A DNA stretch of 64,000 nucleotides from Streptomyces sp. ML-6 (GTDB taxonomy: Bacteria > Actinomycetota > Actinomycetes > Streptomycetales > Streptomycetaceae). Below are positions 12,646 to 40,616 of this stretch, piece by piece. The number at the start of each line of letters is the position of its first letter. Within the stretch, counting starts at the first letter, position 1. Below the pieces are notes generated by a model. That model was not told where the DNA came from. It searched no databases and was given only the letters and a program-made list of their open reading frames with translations. The position numbers and the translations under genes are program-made. Location: positions 5,794,501-5,858,500 of the forward strand of contig NZ_JAOTIK010000001.1 of the NCBI RefSeq assembly GCF_030116705.1. Reading direction: 5' to 3'.

Positions 12646-12954
12646 CTCCCCGTACCCTCCCTGGGCCCCGCCACCGGACCGCCGTCCGTCGCGGACGCCC
12701 GGCGCTTCCCCGAGCTCCCGGCTCCGTCAGGGCAGGGGGGACCCCTGTCCCGGCCCCGGAACTCCCCGGCGCCCCGCGACCGCGCGCGCCGGACGCCGCA
12801 CGGCGTCCCTGCGGGCGACGACGGCAGTTCGACGACCGGGTTCGTGTCCCGCGATCACGGGACCACACCGCACCCAAAGTAACCTCTGCCGCCCGGCGTC
12901 CCTCGCGCAGCCTCCACCGATCGCCCCCGGGAGGCATGTCCTAGCCTCCTGATC
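12646..12954. other. Divergent promoter region, no gene seen
   Basis: 309 bp between the minus-strand aldo/keto reductase and the plus-strand dehydrogenase. It should contain promoters in both directions; I see no clear -10/-35 pair, hairpin or small gene. Confidence 0.4.
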
Positions 12955-13923
12955 ATGACTCCGACGAAGACTTCCGACGTGACGACAACCCCCGACGTCT
13001 GGCTGCCGTTCACCGCCGACGAGATCGACGGGCTTCCCGAAGGGCTCAACTACCGCTTCTGGGACGGCGGCCCGGACTACCCCGCCGACCCCGCCGACTG
13101 CGCCTTCTACGTCGTGCCGTACATGAAGGGGGAGGAGGTCGCGGTCCGTCCGCTCGGCGGCATGACGTCGGTCCGGGTGGTGCAGACCCTCTCGGCGGGC
13201 ATCGACCACGTCGAACCCGGTCTCGGACTGCTTCCCGCCGGGGTGCGGCTGTGCAACGCCAAGGGGGTCCACGAGGCGTCCACCGCCGAGCTCGCCCTCG
13301 CCCTGATCCTGGCCTCCCTGCGCGGCATCCCCCGCTTCGTGCACGGCCAGGACGAGGAGGAGTGGCGGTCGGGCTTCTACCCCGCGCTCGCCGACAAGTC
13401 CGTGCTGATCGTGGGCTACGGTTCGATCGGCTCCGCCATCGAGGACCGGCTCGCGCCCTTCGAGTGCGCGCGGGTGGCACGCGTCGCGCGCTCCGCGCGG
13501 ACGACCGCGCGCGGCCCCGTGCACGCACTCGACGATCTGCCCGCACTCCTGCCCGAGGCCGATGTCGTCGTCCTGTCCACCCCGCTGAACCCGTCCACGC
13601 AGGGGCTGGTGGGAGCCGGCTTCCTGGCCGCCATGCGGGACGGGGCGCTGCTCGTGAACGTCGCGCGCGGCGGCGTCGTGGACACCGCGGCGCTGCTGGC
13701 CGAACTGGAGTCCGGCCGGCTGCGCGCCGCCCTCGACGTCACCGACCCGGAACCGCTGCCCGCCGGGCACCCCCTCTGGCATGCTCCCCATGTCCTGATC
13801 ACGCCCCATGTCGGCGGCAGCACCTCGGCGTTCCTGCCGCGCGCCAAGCGGCTGATGGCCGGACAGCTGAGCCGGTTCGCCGCGGGCGAGCCGCTGCGGA
13901 ACGTCGTGCGCACCACCGAATGA
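12955..13923 (+). CDS. D-isomer-specific 2-hydroxyacid dehydrogenase
   Basis: A 322-residue NAD(P)-dependent enzyme. The Rossmann motif is VGYGSIG (153-159). The catalytic Arg238 (NVARGG), Glu266 (TDPEPL) and His285 (TPHVGG) are all present, so it should interconvert a 2-keto acid and its D-hydroxy acid. It lacks extra regulatory domains, unlike SerA at 21049. The family includes glyoxylate, hydroxypyruvate and phosphoglycerate reductases; this one most resembles the short glyoxylate/hydroxypyruvate reductase-like group, but the substrate is not certain. The ATG start lies a few bases after a run of divergent promoter DNA and has no strong ribosome site, so it may be translated from a very short leader. 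Confidence 0.87.
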   Translation: MTPTKTSDVTTTPDVWLPFTADEIDGLPEGLNYRFWDGGPDYPADPADCAFYVVPYMKGEEVAVRPLGGMTSVRVVQTLSAGIDHVEPGLGLLPAGVRLCNAKGVHEASTAELALALILASLRGIPRFVHGQDEEEWRSGFYPALADKSVLIVGYGSIGSAIEDRLAPFECARVARVARSARTTARGPVHALDDLPALLPEADVVVLSTPLNPSTQGLVGAGFLAAMRDGALLVNVARGGVVDTAALLAELESGRLRAALDVTDPEPLPAGHPLWHAPHVLITPHVGGSTSAFLPRAKRLMAGQLSRFAAGEPLRNVVRTTE

Positions 13924-13924
13924 C

Positions 13925-13956
13925 CACGCTGCGGATCCCCGTGACTGCGCAGCGTG
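13925..13956 (+). terminator. Hairpin after the 2-hydroxyacid dehydrogenase gene
   Basis: A perfect 9-bp inverted repeat CACGCTGCG/CGCAGCGTG with a 14-base loop, immediately after the stop codon and before the GGDEF/EAL gene. Confidence 0.5.
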
Positions 13957-13995
13957 CGGACAACGCCCCAGGTCGTCACGGAGAGTAGAGGAACT

Positions 13996-16900
13996 ATGTC
14001 CCTGAGTGACGACTCTGGTGTATCGTCCCGAAAGGGGCGCTGCGTCGTGGAAGGGACGGCGCCGGGGGACGCGACACGCGAGGGGGCGATGGGCGATGCA
14101 CGGCCGATGGGTGGACGATCCGACACCACGGGGCAGTCGACGGGGACCGGCGGGGCGCCGGGTGAGGGCACATCCGGCGGTATCGGGGTCGCGCCGGTGA
14201 GCGCGCCGGTCGACGCCCTCGGCGCGCTCCTCTCCCGCCGGTCGGCCGCGTGCGGCCCCTCCGCCCTGTTCTGGCAGCTCCTGCTCGGCTTCCTCTGCGC
14301 CGGTTATGCCGTGGGCGCGGCCCTCGGCTGGGGATCACGCCAACTGTCGGTCTTCATGGGCGACTTCGGCCTCAGCGCGGCCGCGCTGATCGCCGCCGTC
14401 TCCTGCTTCCTCTACGCGCGCGCCGTCGGCAGCCGGTTCCGGCCGGCCTGGCTGCTGTTCTCGTTCTCCTCGCTCATGGCCGCCGGGGGCAACGCGGTCT
14501 GGGGCTGGTACGAGGTCGTGCTCGGGCGCGAGGTGCCCACCCCCTCCGCGGCCGACGCCCTCTTCCTCTGCTTCGCGCCGCCCGCCATCGTCGGGCTGCT
14601 CGTCCTCGCCAAGCGCCCGGTCACCAGAGCCGGCTGGGTCTGTCTCGCGCTGGACGCCTGGCTGATCGGCGGCTCGCTCCTCACGCTCTCCTGGAGCCTC
14701 GCCCTCGCCCACACCGCCCACCTGGCGGACGCCGAGGGCCCGAGCGTGGCCCGCGCGGCGCTCTCGCTGGCCTACCCGCTGCTCGACATCGTGCTGGTCT
14801 CCATGGTGCTCGCCCTGCACTTCCGGCGGGTCGGCGCCGACCGTTCCGCGGTGAACACCGCCGTGGCCGCGCTCGCCGTGACAGTCCTGTCCGACGCCCT
14901 GTTCACCTCGCCGCTGCTGCGGCAGAGCTACCACTCCGGACAGTTGCTGGACGCGGGCTGGTTCGCCGGTTCCCTGCTCCTCGCGTACGCCCCCTGGGGT
15001 GCCAACAGAGCGGCGGACAACGCTGTCCCGCCACCGGAGCCCCCGCAGTCCGCCAGCCGCCCCGTCGCGAGTTCTCTGGCCGCGCTGACGCCGTACCTCG
15101 CGGCCGCCGTCTGCACCCTCGGCATCCTCCACAACGTCATCGAGGGCCGCCGGGTGGACCGCGTCGTGGTCCTCACCGGCTGCGCGGTGGTGCTCGCCCT
15201 GGTGGTCCGGCAGGGCATCATGCTCGTCGACAACATCGCCCTCACCCAGGAACTGGCGCAGAAGGAGAACCACTTCCGCTCCCTGGTGCAGGGCTCCAGC
15301 GACGTCATCATGATCGCCGCCCCCACCGGCGTCCTGCGCTACGTCAGCCCCGCCGCCGCCGGGGTGTACGGGCGCGACGCCGACGAGCTGGTCGGGGCCG
15401 AGCTCTCCTCGATCATCCATCCGGACGACCTGGGGCGGGTGGTCCACGAAGTGCGCCGGTTCCTCGCCGCCCCGCCGGGCGAGGAACCCACCACCCGCAT
15501 CGAGTGCCGCTTCCGCTCGGGCACGGGCGACTGGCTCAACGTCGAGTCCACCGTCAACCGCCATCAGGGCGGCCTGATCCTCAACAGCCGCGACGTCACC
15601 GAACGGGTGCGGCTGCAGGCCCAGTTGCAGCACAACGCCGAGCACGACCCGCTCACCGACCTGCCCAACCGCGCCCTGTTCACCAAGCGGGTCCGTCAGG
15701 CCCTCGGCGGCCGGCGGGCCGGTGACCAGGGCACGGCCGTGCTCTTCATCGACCTCGACGGCTTCAAATCGGTCAACGACCGCCTCGGCCACCAGACGGG
15801 CGACGAACTCCTCGTCCAGGCCGCCCACCGCCTCCAGCAGTCCGTCCGGTCCGGCGACACCGCGGCCCGGCTCGGCGGCGACGAGTTCGCGGCGATCATC
15901 CTCGGCGACGGCACCCGCGACCAGGGCGCCCGGGAGTGCCAGGTCCACGAGATCGCCGACCGGCTGCGCGTCACCCTCTCCCAGCCGTACCGGATCGGCG
16001 GCGGGGACGTGCGGGTCGCCGCCTCCATCGGGGTCGCCTTCGCCGAGCCCGGCATCAGCCCCAGCGACCTCATGCGCAACGCCGACCTCGCCATGTACCG
16101 CGCCAAGGCGGGCGGCAAGAACCGCGTCGAGCTGTACGCCCCGCAGATGCAGGCCGAGGTCGTGCGCCGCTCCGAGCTCTCCGCCCGGCTGCGCACCGCA
16201 CTGCGCGACGGCGAGTTCGCCCTGCTCCACCAGCCCGTGGTGCACCTCGCCAGTGGCACGGTCGCCGCCGTCACCGCCCAGGCCCGCTGGCGCTCCGCCC
16301 AGGGCATCCTGTTCACCCCGGCCGAGTTCCTCCGCGTCGCCGAGGACAACGACCGCACCGCCGAACTCGGCCGCTGGCTCCTGGAGGAGGCCGTCGCACA
16401 GGCCGCCGAACGGGCGAGGGCGGGGCACCCGGTCCCCGTGACCGTGCGGCTCCCCGCCCGCAGACTCCTCGACAAGGGGCTCCCGTTCAGCTCCGTCGAG
16501 GCGCTGCTCACCCGGCACGGCCTGCCCTCCGGAGCCCTCATGATCGAAGTCGCCGACAGCGACCCCCGGATCTCCTTCGACGAACTGGAGCAACGCCTCG
16601 TGGCCCTGCGCCGCCTCGGTGTCCGCATCGCGCTCGACGGCTTCGGCAGCGGCTACGCCGCGATCAACGCCCTGCGCCGGCTCCCCATCGACGTACTGAA
16701 ACTCGACCGCGGCCTCGTCGACGGCGTCGTGGAGTCCGCCCGGCTGCACAAGATCACCAGCGGTCTCCTGCGGATCGCCTGCGATCTCGGCATGCAGTCC
16801 GTGGCCGACGGGGTGGATGCGCCGGAGCAGGTCCTCGCGCTGCGCGCCATGGGCTGCACGCACGGCCAGGGGATGGCGTTCTCCGGCCCGCTCGACGAGT

Positions 16901-35116: not shown

Positions 35117-35157
35117 TTTGAGCATCACTCTAACCCCAGGTTAGAGTGCTGCTCAAA
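35117..35157. promoter_or_regulatory. 41-bp dyad operator overlapping the urease-cluster promoter
   Basis: TTTGAGCATCACTCTAAC (35117-35134) is the inverted repeat of 35140-35157 with one mismatch and a 5-base centre. Within it lie TTGAGC (35118-35123) and TAGAGT (35142-35147), separated by 18 bp, a good -35/-10 pair. A repressor binding this dyad would cover the promoter. It is AT-rich in a GC-rich setting, 18 bp before the ureAB start. The TetR gene at 38578 in the same cluster is the natural candidate. Confidence 0.7.
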
Positions 35158-35175
35158 ACCGGGAGGTACGGAGAC

Positions 35176-35856
35176 GTGCGACTGACCCCTACGGAACGCG
35201 ACCGGCTGCTGCTCTTCGGCGCGGCCGAACTGGCCCGGGCCCGCCGCGCCCGGGGGCTGAGACTCAATGTCCCCGAGGCGACCGCGCTGATCGCGGACAC
35301 GGTCTGCGAGGCCGCCCGGGACGGGCTCCGGCTGGCGGAGGCCATCGAGGCCGCCCGCTCGGTGCTCGGCCCCGACGACGTGCTGCCCGGCGTGGCCGAC
35401 GTCGTCACCGAGGTCCACGTGGAGGCCGTCTTCGACGACGGCTCGCGGCTCGCCGTGGTCCCCGCCCCGCTGGGCGGGAGCCTCGGCGACCGGGCGCCCG
35501 GGGCCGTCCTCCCCGGACCCGCCGGGCCCGGGCCGGAACCCGCCGTACGGCTGGAGGTCCGCAACACCGCGACCGTGCCGGTCTCCGTGACCTCGCACTA
35601 CCACTTCTTCGAGGCCAACCCGCGGCTCGACTTCGACCGCTCGGCCGCGTACGGGATGCGGCTGTGCGTCCCTGCCGGGTCCTCCGTCCGCTTCGGGCCG
35701 GGGGAGTCGGTCGAGGTGGGGCTCGTGCCCATCGGCGGGGACCGGATCGCGATCGGCTTCGCCGGGCTGGTCGACGGCCCGCTCGACGCGCCCGGCGCGC
35801 GGGAAGAGGCCCTGCGGCGCGCCGCGGCCTGCGGATACCTGGGAGCAGGACGATGA
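35176..35856 (+). CDS. ureAB: Fused urease gamma/beta subunit (divergent urease)
   Basis: 226 residues. The first ~100 match urease gamma (RLTPTERDRLLLFGAAELAR, then LRLNVPEATALIADTVCEAARDG). After a Pro/Gly linker the rest matches urease beta (NTATVPVSVTSHYHFFEANPRLDFDR, then GMRLCVPAGSSVRFGPGE). Gamma-beta fusions are normal in some ureases (for example Helicobacter). GTG 35176 has GGAGG upstream and gives the standard RLTPTERD start. It overlaps ureC by 4 bases. The subunits scaffold the nickel-containing UreC. The accessory genes ureD, E, F and G are absent here. Confidence 0.9.
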   Translation: MRLTPTERDRLLLFGAAELARARRARGLRLNVPEATALIADTVCEAARDGLRLAEAIEAARSVLGPDDVLPGVADVVTEVHVEAVFDDGSRLAVVPAPLGGSLGDRAPGAVLPGPAGPGPEPAVRLEVRNTATVPVSVTSHYHFFEANPRLDFDRSAAYGMRLCVPAGSSVRFGPGESVEVGLVPIGGDRIAIGFAGLVDGPLDAPGAREEALRRAAACGYLGAGR

Positions 35857-37541
35857 GCATCGACCCGTACGAGTACGCCTCCGTGCACGGCCCGCGCGCC
35901 GGGGACCGGGTCAGGCTCGGCGACAGCGGGCTGACCGTCCGCGTCGAGTCCGACGCGCAGGCGTACGGCGAGGAGTTCCTCGCCGGATTCGGCAAGACCG
36001 CCCGCGACGGGCTGCACCTCAAGGCCGCCGCCGTCCGCGACACCTGCGACGTCGTCATCAGCAACGTGCTGGTCATCGACGCCGTGCAGGGCATCCGCAA
36101 GGTCTCGATCGGCATCCGCGAGGGCCGGATCTCGGCGATCGGCCGGGCCGGCAACCCCGACACCCTCGACGGCGTGGACGTCGTCGTCGGCACGGGCACG
36201 ACGATCGTCTCCGGCGAGGGCATGATCGCGACGGCGGGCGCCGTCGACACCCACGTCCACCTGCTCTCGCCGCGGATCATGGAGGCGTCCCTCGCCTCCG
36301 GCGTCACCACGATCATCGGCCAGGAGTTCGGCCCGGTCTGGGGCGTCGGCGTCAACTCGCCCTGGGCGCTGCGCCACGCCTTCAACGCCTTCGACGCCTG
36401 GCCGGTCAACATCGGCTTCCTGGGCCGCGGTTCCTCCTCCCACGGGGCGCCGCTGGTCGAGGCGCTCGCGGAGGGCGGGGCCTGCGGATTCAAGGTCCAC
36501 GAGGACATGGGCGCCCACACCCGCGCCCTGGACACCGCGCTGCGGGTCGCCGAGGAACACGACGTCCAGGTCGCCCTGCACAGCGACGGGCTGAACGAGT
36601 GCCTGTCGGTCGAGGACACCCTGCGCGTCCTGGAGGGCCGCACGATCCACGCCTTCCACATCGAGGGCTGCGGCGGCGGACACGTCCCCAACGTCCTGAA
36701 GATGGCCGGTGTGCCGAACGTCATCGGCTCGTCCACCAACCCGACCCTGCCCTTCGGCCGGGACGCCGTCGCCGAGCACTACGGGATGATCGTCTCCGTC
36801 CACGACCTCAAGACGGACCTGCCGGGCGACGCCGCCATGGCCCGTGACCGCATCCGGGCCGGGACGATGGGCGCCGAGGACGTGCTGCACGACCTGGGCG
36901 CCATCGGCATCACCTCCTCCGACGCCCAGGGCATGGGCCGGGCCGGCGAGACGGTGCGCCGCACCTTCGCCATGGCCGGGAAGATGAAGGCCGAGTTCGG
37001 CCCGATGGACGGCGACGGCCCCGACGACGACAACGCCCGGGTGCTGCGCTACATCGCCAAGCTCACCATCAACCCCGCCATCGCCCACGGCCTCGCGCAC
37101 GAGGTCGGCTCCATCGAGACCGGCAAGCTCGCCGACATCGTGCTGTGGCGGCCCGAGTTCTTCGGCGCCAAGCCGCAACTGGTGCTCAAGGCCGGCTTCC
37201 CCGCGTACGGCGTCACCGGCGACCCGAACGCCGCCACCGACACCTGCGAACCGCTCGTGCTCGGACCGCAGTTCGGGGCGTACGGGGCGACCGCCGCCGA
37301 CCTCTCCGTCGCCTTCGTCTCCCGGGCCGCGACCCAGCTCGGGGCGGACTCGATGCCCACCCGCCGGCGCCGCGTCGGGGTGCACGGCACCCGGGGCATC
37401 GGCCCCGGCGACCTCGTGCACAACTCCCGCACCGGAGAGGTCGCCGTGGACGCCCGCAGCGGCCTGGTCACCCTGGACGGCGACCCGCTGCGCTCCGAGC
37501 CCGCCGACTCCGTCTCCCTCAACCGCCTCTACTTCCTCTGA
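35853..37541 (+). CDS. ureC: Urease alpha-like subunit with altered active-site flap
   Basis: A 562-residue metal-dependent amidohydrolase. Nickel ligands of classical urease are kept: HxH in VDTHVHLLSP, the Lys to be carbamylated in GFKVHEDMG, His in ALHSDGLNE, His in HAFHIEGCGGGH and Asp in TSSDAQGMGRAGE. The flap differs. Aligned without gaps from EH(308-309) to RIR, the normal Met-Val-Cys-His-His becomes Val-Ser-Val316-His317-Asp318, so the flap Cys is Val and the second His is Asp. The Trp of HEDWG is Met. It is therefore probably an active hydrolase with changed substrate fit, or a poor urease. Agmatine deiminase follows after 19 bp. Maturation proteins would have to come from elsewhere. 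Confidence 0.88.
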   Translation: MSIDPYEYASVHGPRAGDRVRLGDSGLTVRVESDAQAYGEEFLAGFGKTARDGLHLKAAAVRDTCDVVISNVLVIDAVQGIRKVSIGIREGRISAIGRAGNPDTLDGVDVVVGTGTTIVSGEGMIATAGAVDTHVHLLSPRIMEASLASGVTTIIGQEFGPVWGVGVNSPWALRHAFNAFDAWPVNIGFLGRGSSSHGAPLVEALAEGGACGFKVHEDMGAHTRALDTALRVAEEHDVQVALHSDGLNECLSVEDTLRVLEGRTIHAFHIEGCGGGHVPNVLKMAGVPNVIGSSTNPTLPFGRDAVAEHYGMIVSVHDLKTDLPGDAAMARDRIRAGTMGAEDVLHDLGAIGITSSDAQGMGRAGETVRRTFAMAGKMKAEFGPMDGDGPDDDNARVLRYIAKLTINPAIAHGLAHEVGSIETGKLADIVLWRPEFFGAKPQLVLKAGFPAYGVTGDPNAATDTCEPLVLGPQFGAYGATAADLSVAFVSRAATQLGADSMPTRRRRVGVHGTRGIGPGDLVHNSRTGEVAVDARSGLVTLDGDPLRSEPADSVSLNRLYFL

Positions 37542-37560
37542 CACCCCTCCAGGACACCTC

Positions 37561-38574
37561 ATGACCTTCCGCATGCCGCCCGAGTGGGCCCCGCACGAAC
37601 GCACCTGGATGGCCTGGCCCGGCCCCAACCCCACCTTCGGCACCGGCGCCGAACTGGCCGCGGCCCGCGACGCCTGGGCCACCGTGGCCCGCGCCGTCCG
37701 CCGCTTCGAACCCGTCACGATGGTCGTCGGCCCCGGCCAGGAGGACGGCGCCCGCGCCCTCCTCGGCCCGGACATCGAGCTCGCCGTCCGCCCCCTGGAC
37801 GACGCCTGGATGCGGGACATCGGCCCCACCTTCGTCACCGACGGACGGCAACTGGCCGCCGTGGACTGGACGTTCAACGGCTGGGGCGCCCAGGGCTGGG
37901 CCCGCTGGGAGCACGACCGGCACATCGCCCGCTCCGTCGCCGAACTCGCCGACGTACCCGTGCACGGCTCCCGCCTGGTCAACGAGGGCGGCGCCCTCCA
38001 CGTCGACGGCGAGGGCACCGTCCTGCTCACCGAGACCGTCCAGCTCGGCAAGGAACGCAACCCCGACTGGACCCGCGAGCAGGTCGAGGCCGAGATCCAC
38101 GCCCGGCTCGGCACCGAGAAGGCCATCTGGCTGCCGCGCGGACTGTCCGGCGACTACGGCACGTACGGCACCCTCGGCCACGTCGACATCGTCGCCGCCT
38201 TCGCCCGCCCCGGCACCGTCGTCGTCCACGTCCAGCCCGACCCGGCCCACCCCGACCACGAGATCACCCGCGAGACCGTCCGCATCCTGCGCGGGGCCAC
38301 CGACGCCCGGGGCCGCTCCCTGGAGGTCGTCGAGGTCGAGGCACCCACCGTGCTGAAGGCCGACGGGGAGTGGGTCGACTACTCCTACATCAACCACTAC
38401 CTCTGCAACGGCGGCGTCGTCCTGTGCGCCTTCGACGACCCGCGCGACCAGGAGGCGGCGGAGATCTTCGGCGAACTCTTCCCCGACCGTACGGTGACGC
38501 TCGTCGACGCCCGTACCATCTTTGCCGGCGGTGGAGGCATCCACTGCATCACCCAGCAGCAGCCGAAGGTCTGA
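37561..38574 (+). CDS. aguA: Agmatine deiminase
   Basis: A 337-residue enzyme of the peptidylarginine-deiminase fold that hydrolyses agmatine to N-carbamoylputrescine and ammonia. Catalytic residues are visible: Asp in DAWMRDIGPTFV, Glu in LVNEGGALHVDG, His in GTYGTLGHVDIVAAF and the nucleophile Cys329 in GGGGIHCITQQQP. The N-terminal MPPEWAPHERTWMAWP is characteristic. It lies 19 bp after ureC and 3 bp before the TetR gene, so all are one operon. No N-carbamoylputrescine amidohydrolase (AguB) gene is nearby, which makes the adjacent urease-like enzyme a candidate for the next step; this is inference. Confidence 0.93.
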   Translation: MTFRMPPEWAPHERTWMAWPGPNPTFGTGAELAAARDAWATVARAVRRFEPVTMVVGPGQEDGARALLGPDIELAVRPLDDAWMRDIGPTFVTDGRQLAAVDWTFNGWGAQGWARWEHDRHIARSVAELADVPVHGSRLVNEGGALHVDGEGTVLLTETVQLGKERNPDWTREQVEAEIHARLGTEKAIWLPRGLSGDYGTYGTLGHVDIVAAFARPGTVVVHVQPDPAHPDHEITRETVRILRGATDARGRSLEVVEVEAPTVLKADGEWVDYSYINHYLCNGGVVLCAFDDPRDQEAAEIFGELFPDRTVTLVDARTIFAGGGGIHCITQQQPKV

Positions 38575-38577
38575 AAC

Positions 38578-39183
38578 GTGTCCCCCGCGCCACGCCGTCG
38601 CAACACCGCCCCGCCCCGTGAGGAACTGCTGGCCGCAGCCATGGCCACCATCGCCGAACGGGGGCTCGACGGCCTCACCATGGCCGGGCTCGGCCGCGAG
38701 GTCGGCATGAGCAGCGGACACCTCCTCTACTACTTCCACACCAAGGACGAGCTGCTGCTCCAGACCCTGGAGTGGAGCGAGGGACGGCTCGGCACGCGGC
38801 GGCGCGCCCTGCTCGCGGGGCGGGCGACGGCCCGCGAACGGCTCCACGGATACATCGACCTGTACCTCCCCGACGGCGACCGCGACCCGCACTGGACGCT
38901 CTGGCTGGAGGTGTGGAACCGCTCGCGGGCCGCGGACGACGACGCGCGCGCCCGGCAGGCCGCCATCGAGGACGCCTGGCACCGCGACCTGGTGGCCCTG
39001 GTGCGGGAGGGCATCGCGGGCGGCGAGTTCCGCGCCGTCGACGCCGAACGGTTCGCGACCCGGCTGCGCGCCCTGCTCGACGGCTTCAGCGTCCACGTCG
39101 CGGTCGGCATCCCCGGCACGGGACGTTCCCGGGTCCTCGCCGAGGCGGGGGAGTTCGTCGAGGAATCGCTCGCCGCCCGCTGA
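38578..39183 (+). CDS. TetR-family regulator of the urease/agmatine cluster
   Basis: A 201-residue regulator. N-terminal HTH: MATIAERGLDGLTMAGLGREVGMSSGHLLYYFHTKDELL. The C-terminal half (LWLEVWNRSRAADDDARARQ, then ALLDGFSVHVAVG) resembles BetI-like TetR proteins that sense small cations such as betaine aldehyde. GTG 38578 starts 3 bases after the aguA stop, so it is coexpressed. It probably represses the cluster promoter at 35117-35157 and possibly the transporter gene 98 bp downstream. The ligand is likely to be agmatine or a related compound, by context only. Confidence 0.88.
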   Translation: MSPAPRRRNTAPPREELLAAAMATIAERGLDGLTMAGLGREVGMSSGHLLYYFHTKDELLLQTLEWSEGRLGTRRRALLAGRATARERLHGYIDLYLPDGDRDPHWTLWLEVWNRSRAADDDARARQAAIEDAWHRDLVALVREGIAGGEFRAVDAERFATRLRALLDGFSVHVAVGIPGTGRSRVLAEAGEFVEESLAAR

Positions 39184-39281
39184 CGCGCACCGGCCCGTGA
39201 ACGAAACGCACATAAGTACGCGCGATCGTTGCGCACGGCGCCCTTGTTCAGGCCCTCGCCCGTCGGGCACGGTGGCGGACC

Positions 39282-40616
39282 ATGGGACGAGAGCAGTGGA
39301 AGAAGATCTGGGTCGGCTCGGCCGGCAACATGGTCGAGTGGTTCGACTGGTTCGTGTACGCCACCTTCGCGGTCTACTTCGCGGATTCGTTCTTCCCCGA
39401 GGGCAACGAGACCGCCAACCTGATGAACACCATGGGCATCTTCGCCGTCGGCTTCTTCATGCGGCCGGTCGGCGGCTGGCTGCTCGGCCGGATCGGTGAC
39501 CGCAGAGGACGCAAGGCCGCGCTCACCCTCACCGTCACCCTCATGTCGGCCTCCGCGATCCTCATCGCCGTCGCACCGACGTACGACGTCGCGGGATACG
39601 GCGGCGTCGCCGTCCTGCTGGTGGCCCGGCTGCTCCAGGGCCTGTCCGTCGGGGGCGAGTACGCCGCCAGCGCCACCTACCTCACCGAGGCGTCCGCCCC
39701 CGAACGGCGCGGCTTCGCCTCCAGCTTCCAGTACGTGTCCATGACCGCGGGACAGCTGGTCGGCCTCGGCCTCCAGATCGTCCTGCAACGCAACATGTCC
39801 GAGGCGGCCCTGCACGACTGGGGCTGGCGCATCCCGTTCGTCGTCGGCGCGCTCGGCGCCGGAATCGTCTTCTACCTGCGCCGCAACATGCTGGAGACCG
39901 AGGTCTACGCGGAGTCCGGCGCCGCCGGTCAGGAGGACCGGGGCACCCTGAAGGCGCTGTGGCGGCACCGGCGCGAGGCGCTCCTCGTGATGGCGCTGAC
40001 CATGGGCGGGACCGTCGCCTACTACACGTACACGACCTACCTCACCAAGTTCCTCTCCAAGAGCGCCGGCATGGAGAAGTCCACCGCCTCGCTCGTCAGC
40101 TTCTGCGCCCTGTTCGTCTTCATGTGCCTCCAGCCGCTGGCCGGGATGCTCTCCGACCGGGTCGGCCGCCGCCCGCTGCTGATCGGCTTCGCCATCGGCT
40201 CCACCTTCCTGACCGTGCCGATCATGACCATGCTCAAGCACGCGGGCACGTTCTGGCCCGCCTTCGGACTGGCGCTGCTCGCCCTGGTGATCGTCACCGG
40301 CTACACCTCGATCAACGCCTGCGTGAAGGCGGAGCTGTTCCCGACCGGCATCCGCGCCCTGGGCGTCGCCCTCCCGTACGCCCTGGCCAACGCGCTCTTC
40401 GGCGGCACCGCCGAGTACGTGGCGCTCTGGTTCAAGAAGGCGGGCGTCGAGTCCGGCTTCTACTGGTACGTGGCGGGCTGCGCCGCGGTCTCCCTGGTGG
40501 TCTACCTGACCATGCGCGAGACCCGGGACATCGACCTGGGCCGGATCGGCAGCAAGGACGCGGACCGGGCCGGTGCGCACCGGCCCGGGGCGACCAGCGT
40601 CACCCCCGCGCCCTGA
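39282..40616 (+). CDS. MFS transporter of the metabolite:H+ symporter (MHS) family
   Basis: A 444-residue inner-membrane carrier with 12 predicted helices. MHS features: SAGNMVEWFDWFVYATFAVYF at the start, GRIGDRRGRK in the 2-3 loop, VGGEYAASATYLTEASAPERRG after helix 4 and SDRVGRRPLL in the second half. The family imports small charged solutes with protons (proline/betaine, 2-oxoglutarate, shikimate, citrate). Placed behind agmatine deiminase and its TetR gene, it probably brings in the cluster's substrate. The ribosome site before ATG 39282 is weak (GGTGGCGG). Its 3' end runs into a four-copy tandem repeat. Confidence 0.88.
   Translation: MGREQWKKIWVGSAGNMVEWFDWFVYATFAVYFADSFFPEGNETANLMNTMGIFAVGFFMRPVGGWLLGRIGDRRGRKAALTLTVTLMSASAILIAVAPTYDVAGYGGVAVLLVARLLQGLSVGGEYAASATYLTEASAPERRGFASSFQYVSMTAGQLVGLGLQIVLQRNMSEAALHDWGWRIPFVVGALGAGIVFYLRRNMLETEVYAESGAAGQEDRGTLKALWRHRREALLVMALTMGGTVAYYTYTTYLTKFLSKSAGMEKSTASLVSFCALFVFMCLQPLAGMLSDRVGRRPLLIGFAIGSTFLTVPIMTMLKHAGTFWPAFGLALLALVIVTGYTSINACVKAELFPTGIRALGVALPYALANALFGGTAEYVALWFKKAGVESGFYWYVAGCAAVSLVVYLTMRETRDIDLGRIGSKDADRAGAHRPGATSVTPAP

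Follow-up and report, generated by a model that had tools for sequence, protein, structure and literature searches.

A urease-like enzyme encoded with a deiminase in Streptomyces: a candidate two-step module for the breakdown of guanidino compounds

What is the function of a set of urease-like genes that lies in one tight operon with a deiminase gene and a regulator gene, and that is adjoined by no ureD, ureE, ureF or ureG? The question is raised by a 64,000-nucleotide stretch of the 9.1 Mb genome of Streptomyces sp. ML-6 (assembly GCF_030116705.1, contig NZ_JAOTIK010000001.1, positions 5,794,501-5,858,500), here called the window, in whose coordinates all features are given. The operon, ureAB-ureC-deiminase-tetR, is flanked by an ilvE-like and a cimA-like gene (both designations were assigned in this analysis). 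UreA, UreB and UreC subunits are all represented. The analysis favors, with a probability of roughly 0.6, a two-step module that breaks down guanidino compounds. The deiminase would convert R-NH-C(=NH)-NH2 to a monosubstituted urea (a ureido compound) and ammonia. The urease-fold amidohydrolase with a remodelled loop, designated UreABC2, would then split the ureido compound, giving the amine R-NH2 together with CO2 and another ammonia. TetR would keep the operon repressed through a conserved operator as long as no pathway compound is available. This reading is based on the co-occurrence of the two enzymes, their presence in second clusters and in an alternative gene order, a clade signature with intact metal ligands, the conserved operator, and the lack of an N-carbamoylputrescine amidohydrolase (AguB) match over cut-off. 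Since the remodelled urease-like enzyme and its pairing with a deiminase recur in related bacteria, UreABC2 probably finishes the breakdown of guanidine compounds rather than degrading ordinary urea.

The alpha subunit was aligned to the urease of Klebsiella aerogenes (1EJW). The metal ligands H134, H136, K217, H246, H272 and D360 and the catalytic H320 are kept in the window UreC and, without exception, in 124 close relatives; H219 and R336 are also retained in the window protein. The retained positions include that of the carbamylated lysine, and conserved ligands do not reveal which metal is bound. The surroundings of the metal center are different. The canonical loop GGGTGPAxGTxATTCTPG is swapped for GQEFGPVWGVGVNSPW, which is four residues shorter, W222 is changed to Met, C319 to Val, H321 to Asp, S361 to Ala and A363 to Gly, leaving the protein with neither the canonical substrate loop nor the flap Cys319. 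The loop core GQExGPxWGVGVN and the ligands are invariant in the 124 relatives (at least 76% identity), and the signature persists, slightly varied, in proteins of as little as 51% identity. W222 is changed throughout the group; C319 is usually changed and is kept in a few members (e.g., L220, L202, L209). When 62 chosen UreC proteins were placed in a tree, a branch supported at 100/100 separated the 28 rows with the signature from the others. These proteins, named UreC2, are a distinct clade of urease-like alpha subunits; the urease had been called divergent in an initial annotation of the window, and the divergence can now be placed in the active site. Other divergent ureC genes with loops of their own, IQDFGPVWNLG (L228) and TAGFEEPP (L224), have a deiminase gene 448 and 607 bp distant, respectively.

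UreC2 and the deiminase are linked far beyond chance, as a survey of co-occurrence proposed in the initial annotation has now shown. With presence set at 76% identity or more for UreC2 and 65% or more for the deiminase, 98 of 150 Streptomycetaceae genomes have both, 44 have neither and 8 are discordant, 7 with the deiminase only and 1 (G458) with UreC2 only (Fisher p 2.6e-29, relatedness ignored). In five of the seven the deiminase is at or beside a contig end: G421 and G436, which still show the 3' end of UreC at the edge, and G442, G448 and G107. G520 has ilvE directly before the deiminase, without ureABC2 there, and G399 has no UreC within 15 kb. A set of 80 loci fetched via the deiminase, and so biased towards it, contains a ureC match longer than 400 residues in 72 cases, always preceding the deiminase on its own strand by 11-206 bp. 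To this can be added a set unbiased by the deiminase, consisting of 29 UreC2 loci outside the Streptomycetaceae that were found via UreC in 394 genomes of the class (E-values up to 1e-165). Within the flanks fetched around ureC (for the most part some 7 kb, shorter in several), a deiminase is present in 12 of the 29 UreC2 loci. None of the 46 canonical ureC loci has one (Fisher p 2.0e-6 against UreC2), and the 12 remaining divergent ureC loci include 2 that do.

The pairing is also found in other arrangements. Two loci (L211, L212) have the order deiminase-ureAB-ureC, and UreC2 is paired with several different deiminase subfamilies. Second clusters in Streptomycetaceae (L147, L148, L152, L154, L214-L219, L222, L223) combine UreABC2 or UreC2 with at least two diverged deiminases, TetR-like genes and a Dpp/Opp-like ABC transporter, the tested parts of which score under every curated cut-off, with nickel and peptide models among the best. 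L150 carries this gene set, minus UreC, in the stretch read.

The dyad reported ahead of the operon in the initial annotation proved to be a pair of 17-bp palindromes, of which the window holds exactly two copies where 0.05 would be expected by chance. When up to 4 mismatches in 17 were tolerated, 69 of the 72 relatives' loci tested had the motif in the 300 bp ahead of ureAB, as against 27 of 1,420 random control windows from the same loci. Another family (f89), in most loci of which tetR is divergently placed, has the motif in 6 of 7 loci. It was not found in the second-cluster and several other-genus loci tested, e.g., L147, L148, L152, L154, L158, L161 and L162. A dyad-core search of the whole host genome at up to three mismatches returned the window copy only, which matched with zero mismatches; a reversed control pattern matched equally often. 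The tetR gene accompanies the deiminase in 76 of the 80 loci fetched with it. Of the earlier suggestion that TetR senses the substrate, the accompanying tetR gene and a conserved local operator are thus in place, and binding of that operator by the TetR protein is predicted from them.

How UreABC2 might mature is suggested by the distribution of the urease accessory proteins. The absence of ureD/E/F/G in the initial annotation is true beside the operon and not of the genome, which has two further ureC genes, each followed by UreF-, UreG- and UreD-like genes (second urease, L114); its two UreG and two UreD genes are those beside the other ureC genes. Thirty genomes with UreC2, 29 from outside the Streptomycetaceae and the window's own, were then compared. 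More than one ureC match over cut-off is present in 8, and exactly those 8 have UreD and UreG over cut-off. The other 22, in which UreC2 is the only ureC and which are 93-100% complete, have no UreD, and no UreG over cut-off (Fisher p 1.7e-7 for ureC number against UreD/UreG, relatedness ignored). Below the cut-off, UreG matches among the 22 are one truncated at a contig start (G769, 199.7 bits, cut-off 204.2) and a weak one (G556, 46.3 bits). Because of these 22 genomes, UreC2 does not seem to need a nickel-delivery system, and its maturation without UreD and UreG would therefore perhaps involve another metal. There is a precedent. The iron urease UreA2B2 of Helicobacter is not known to require accessory proteins, and its structures 3QGA and 3QGK are among the matches listed. 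According to the available text of PMC11541087 it has the urease fold and uses a metal that is not nickel.

The deiminase had initially been identified as AguA, an agmatine deiminase giving N-carbamoylputrescine, a claim that is now weakened. The enzyme has the PF04371 fold and keeps the catalytic Cys, His, Asp and Glu, but it scores 303.4 bits against the agmatine deiminase equivalog TIGR03380, under the cut-off of 381.8. In the plant enzymes, as described in the available parts of PMC6447857, Asp220 (numbering of the Medicago agmatine deiminase) contacts the amine, and together with a lid loop it holds agmatine. The Asp220 column is Gly in 124 of 124 relatives of at least 60% identity, a match that depends on the alignment since an insertion adjoins the site; the Asn363 column is likewise Gly in 124 of 124. 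The gate-keeping lid has 8-10 residues in the window deiminase and its relatives versus 26 in agmatine deiminase. The AguA of Enterococcus is also without Asp at the aligned Asp220 column. With Asp220 and the lid loop absent, the agmatine specificity of the window deiminase appears doubtful from its sequence; agmatine would be a possible and not a favored substrate, and N-carbamoylputrescine is one candidate only. The wider part of the earlier proposal fares better: the urease-like enzyme may well use a substituted urea made by the deiminase.

A strict agmatine pathway, in which the deiminase is AguA and UreABC2 is the N-carbamoylputrescine hydrolase of a further agmatine-to-putrescine route, is accordingly unlikely on the residue and score evidence above, even though other parts of the data are in its favor. 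AguB (TIGR03381) is over its cut-off in none of the 150 Streptomycetaceae genomes and none of the 30 UreC2 genomes, in agreement with the earlier report that no N-carbamoylputrescine amidohydrolase is encoded at the locus. The best match in the host genome reaches 259.6 bits (cut-off 410.25). An AguB elsewhere was thus discarded as the second step at the level of the cut-off; homologues of about 260 bits could still act. In addition, L199 has, 2 kb from UreC2, a deiminase that scores 533 bits on TIGR03380 and is a true agmatine deiminase, and similar deiminases lie near UreC2 in L197 and L198. Since the L199 enzyme is over the cut-off and the window enzyme under it, the substrate of the deiminase partner seems to vary by lineage. 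Quite unlikely, too, is that UreABC2 is an ordinary urease and the deiminase makes urea, e.g., from free guanidine. Such an enzyme would be expected to retain the ligands, H219, H320 and R336, as UreC2 does, and the window UreAB and UreC both pass urease subfamily models, UreC with 749.8 against NF009686 (cut-off 354). On the other hand UreC scores 645.9 against the urease equivalog TIGR01792, under the cut-off of 680, the substrate loop is altered in all 124 close relatives, 22 sole-UreC2 genomes have no UreD, and no UreG over cut-off, and the host is already equipped with two further ureases that have their accessory genes.

The subfamily scores of UreAB and UreC are also among several points that weigh against a dedicated guanidine module. 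Four Streptomyces loci (L007, L008, L027, L014) retain the deiminase and tetR without ureAB-ureC2, L014 with a 3' ureC remnant. A363G, S361A or a changed C319 appear singly in some ureases outside UreC2 (L095, L099, L101, L107, L109-L111), so that the clade is marked by its loop and by the change at W222. Finally, 8 of the 29 UreC2 genomes contain no PF04371 gene; a strict need of UreC2 for a deiminase is therefore ruled out, and the deiminase is not its only source of substrate. Another partner is indicated by genes encoding relatives of two Amidohydro_3 proteins (with the Pfam assignment checked for three), which are present in 12 of 17 deiminase-less UreC2 loci, in none of the 46 canonical loci and in 2 of the 12 divergent loci of other kinds. 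Together with the 8 genomes, these 12 loci show that UreABC2 is not dependent on the deiminase everywhere. Several UreC2 loci with Amidohydro_3 hold PotABCD-like genes; in L202 the ATPase narrowly passes its polyamine subfamily cut-off (356.4 vs 355.6) and the binding protein is far under its own. One could then regard the deiminase pairing as incidental, in which case UreABC2 would generally work with an Amidohydro_3 enzyme or some other supplier of ureido compounds, and the deiminase would belong to a separate pathway under the same control. This is very unlikely, as UreC2 without the deiminase is almost never seen in Streptomycetaceae and the pairing extends to several deiminase subfamilies. 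Both kinds of locus would be accounted for if UreABC2 accepted ureido compounds of several origins. In its broadest form, the two-step reading would make UreABC2 a widespread actinobacterial urease-fold subfamily that hydrolyzes monosubstituted ureas, matures without UreD/UreG (perhaps with another metal), catalyzes the step that follows a PF04371 guanidine deiminase or, in other lineages, an Amidohydro_3 enzyme, and is annotated as urease; this generalization is tentative, at a little under even odds. The ureC of one Streptomyces locus (L262, genome G497) forms a very long branch, and a gene related to Amidohydro_3 is close by.

The proposed module has parts in common with known systems. It shares with urease (EC 3.5.1.5, UreABC plus UreDEFG) the fused UreAB and a UreC with all active-site positions named above, and differs in the shortened loop, the W222 and C319 changes and the occurrence of the clade without UreD and UreG. 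The AguA-AguB and AguA-AguY routes (PMC12283126, available text) also consist of a deiminase followed by a non-homologous ureido hydrolase encoded side by side; here the second enzyme would have the urease fold. The same 2025 paper on AguY counts three known agmatine-to-putrescine routes, and the word urease does not occur in its available text. No amidase adjoins the window deiminase, and no AguY model or sequence was used in the search.

A search of titles and abstract openings in the open-licence PMC literature, with subscription journals outside its scope, found none describing the urease-deiminase pairing or the UreC2 clade. The S. coelicolor genes SCO5525-SCO5528 are presumably the counterparts of the window operon, an assignment made from gene names and position. 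As far as their available text goes, earlier papers handle the S. coelicolor genes separately, as a urease and an arginine-pathway homologue: SCO5525-5526 is an ure(AB)C-only cluster in PMC2492869, and in PMC3293853 it is termed urea-utilizing, with SCO5527 a homologue of the arginine decarboxylase pathway and no effect of ArgR. SCO5526 is used for nrdABS in PMC4991794, apparently a slip. A study of cave Streptomyces (PMC5489568, available text) puts ure(AB)C among functional urease clusters. The nearest named relatives are annotated as urease subunit alpha, yet the UreC2 loop is present in 120 of 120 and 119 of 120 proteins among the matches listed, which include three named Candidatus Nanopelagicales. 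As ureC genes are taken as evidence of ureolysis, urea use would be over-counted in Streptomyces and in small-genome Actinomycetota if UreC2 does not hydrolyze urea. In that case UreABC2 would also combine the urease fold with a new substrate, and perhaps with a different path to its metal center, and it would supply the second step for guanidine deiminases in genomes without AguB.

The features of the locus are collected in Table 1. The spacings and families are as first described: ureAB and ureC overlap by 4 bp, gaps of 19 and 3 bp precede the deiminase and tetR, and the MHS-type carrier follows after 98 bp, NCBIfam and Pfam agreeing on the gene families of the operon and the carrier. The window deiminase is the only PF04371 gene of the host genome.

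Table 1. Coordinates of the operon, its predicted operator and the following carrier gene in the window
Feature	Position	Strand	Basis
Predicted operator copy 1, 17-bp palindrome	35117..35133	.	Motif conservation
Predicted operator copy 2, 17-bp palindrome	35141..35157	.	Motif conservation
ureAB, fused urease gamma/beta subunit	35176..35856	+	NF009671 315.8 bits (cut-off 243), NCBIfam and Pfam
ureC2, urease-like alpha subunit	35853..37541	+	NF009686 passed, TIGR01792 not reached
Remodelled substrate loop GQEFGPVWGVGVNSPW, UreC residues 156-171	36318..36365	+	Alignment to urease
PF04371 deiminase, agmatine-deiminase-like	37561..38574	+	NCBIfam, Pfam
Gly203, aligned to agmatine-binding Asp220 of Medicago agmatine deiminase	38167..38169	+	Alignment
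tetR, BetI-like regulator	38578..39183	+	NCBIfam, Pfam
MHS-type carrier, not a conserved part	39282..40616	+	Family models; relatives' loci

The ilvE-like and cimA-like flanking genes are kept across relatives. The MHS carrier, earlier thought to import the substrate, is present in only 19 of the 80 deiminase-fetched loci as compared to 50 of 80 for an NCS1-type permease, and is therefore ruled out as a core part. The NCS1-type permease (e.g., L014:6109-7578, minus strand) scores under family cut-offs and is often encoded close to ureAB in the opposite direction. Some relatives carry secreted propeller-like genes in the tetR-cimA interval; these were judged unrelated from sequence only. Near UreABC2 in L204, a 749-residue frame (12811-15060, minus strand) matches the large and medium subunits of diol/glycerol dehydratase.

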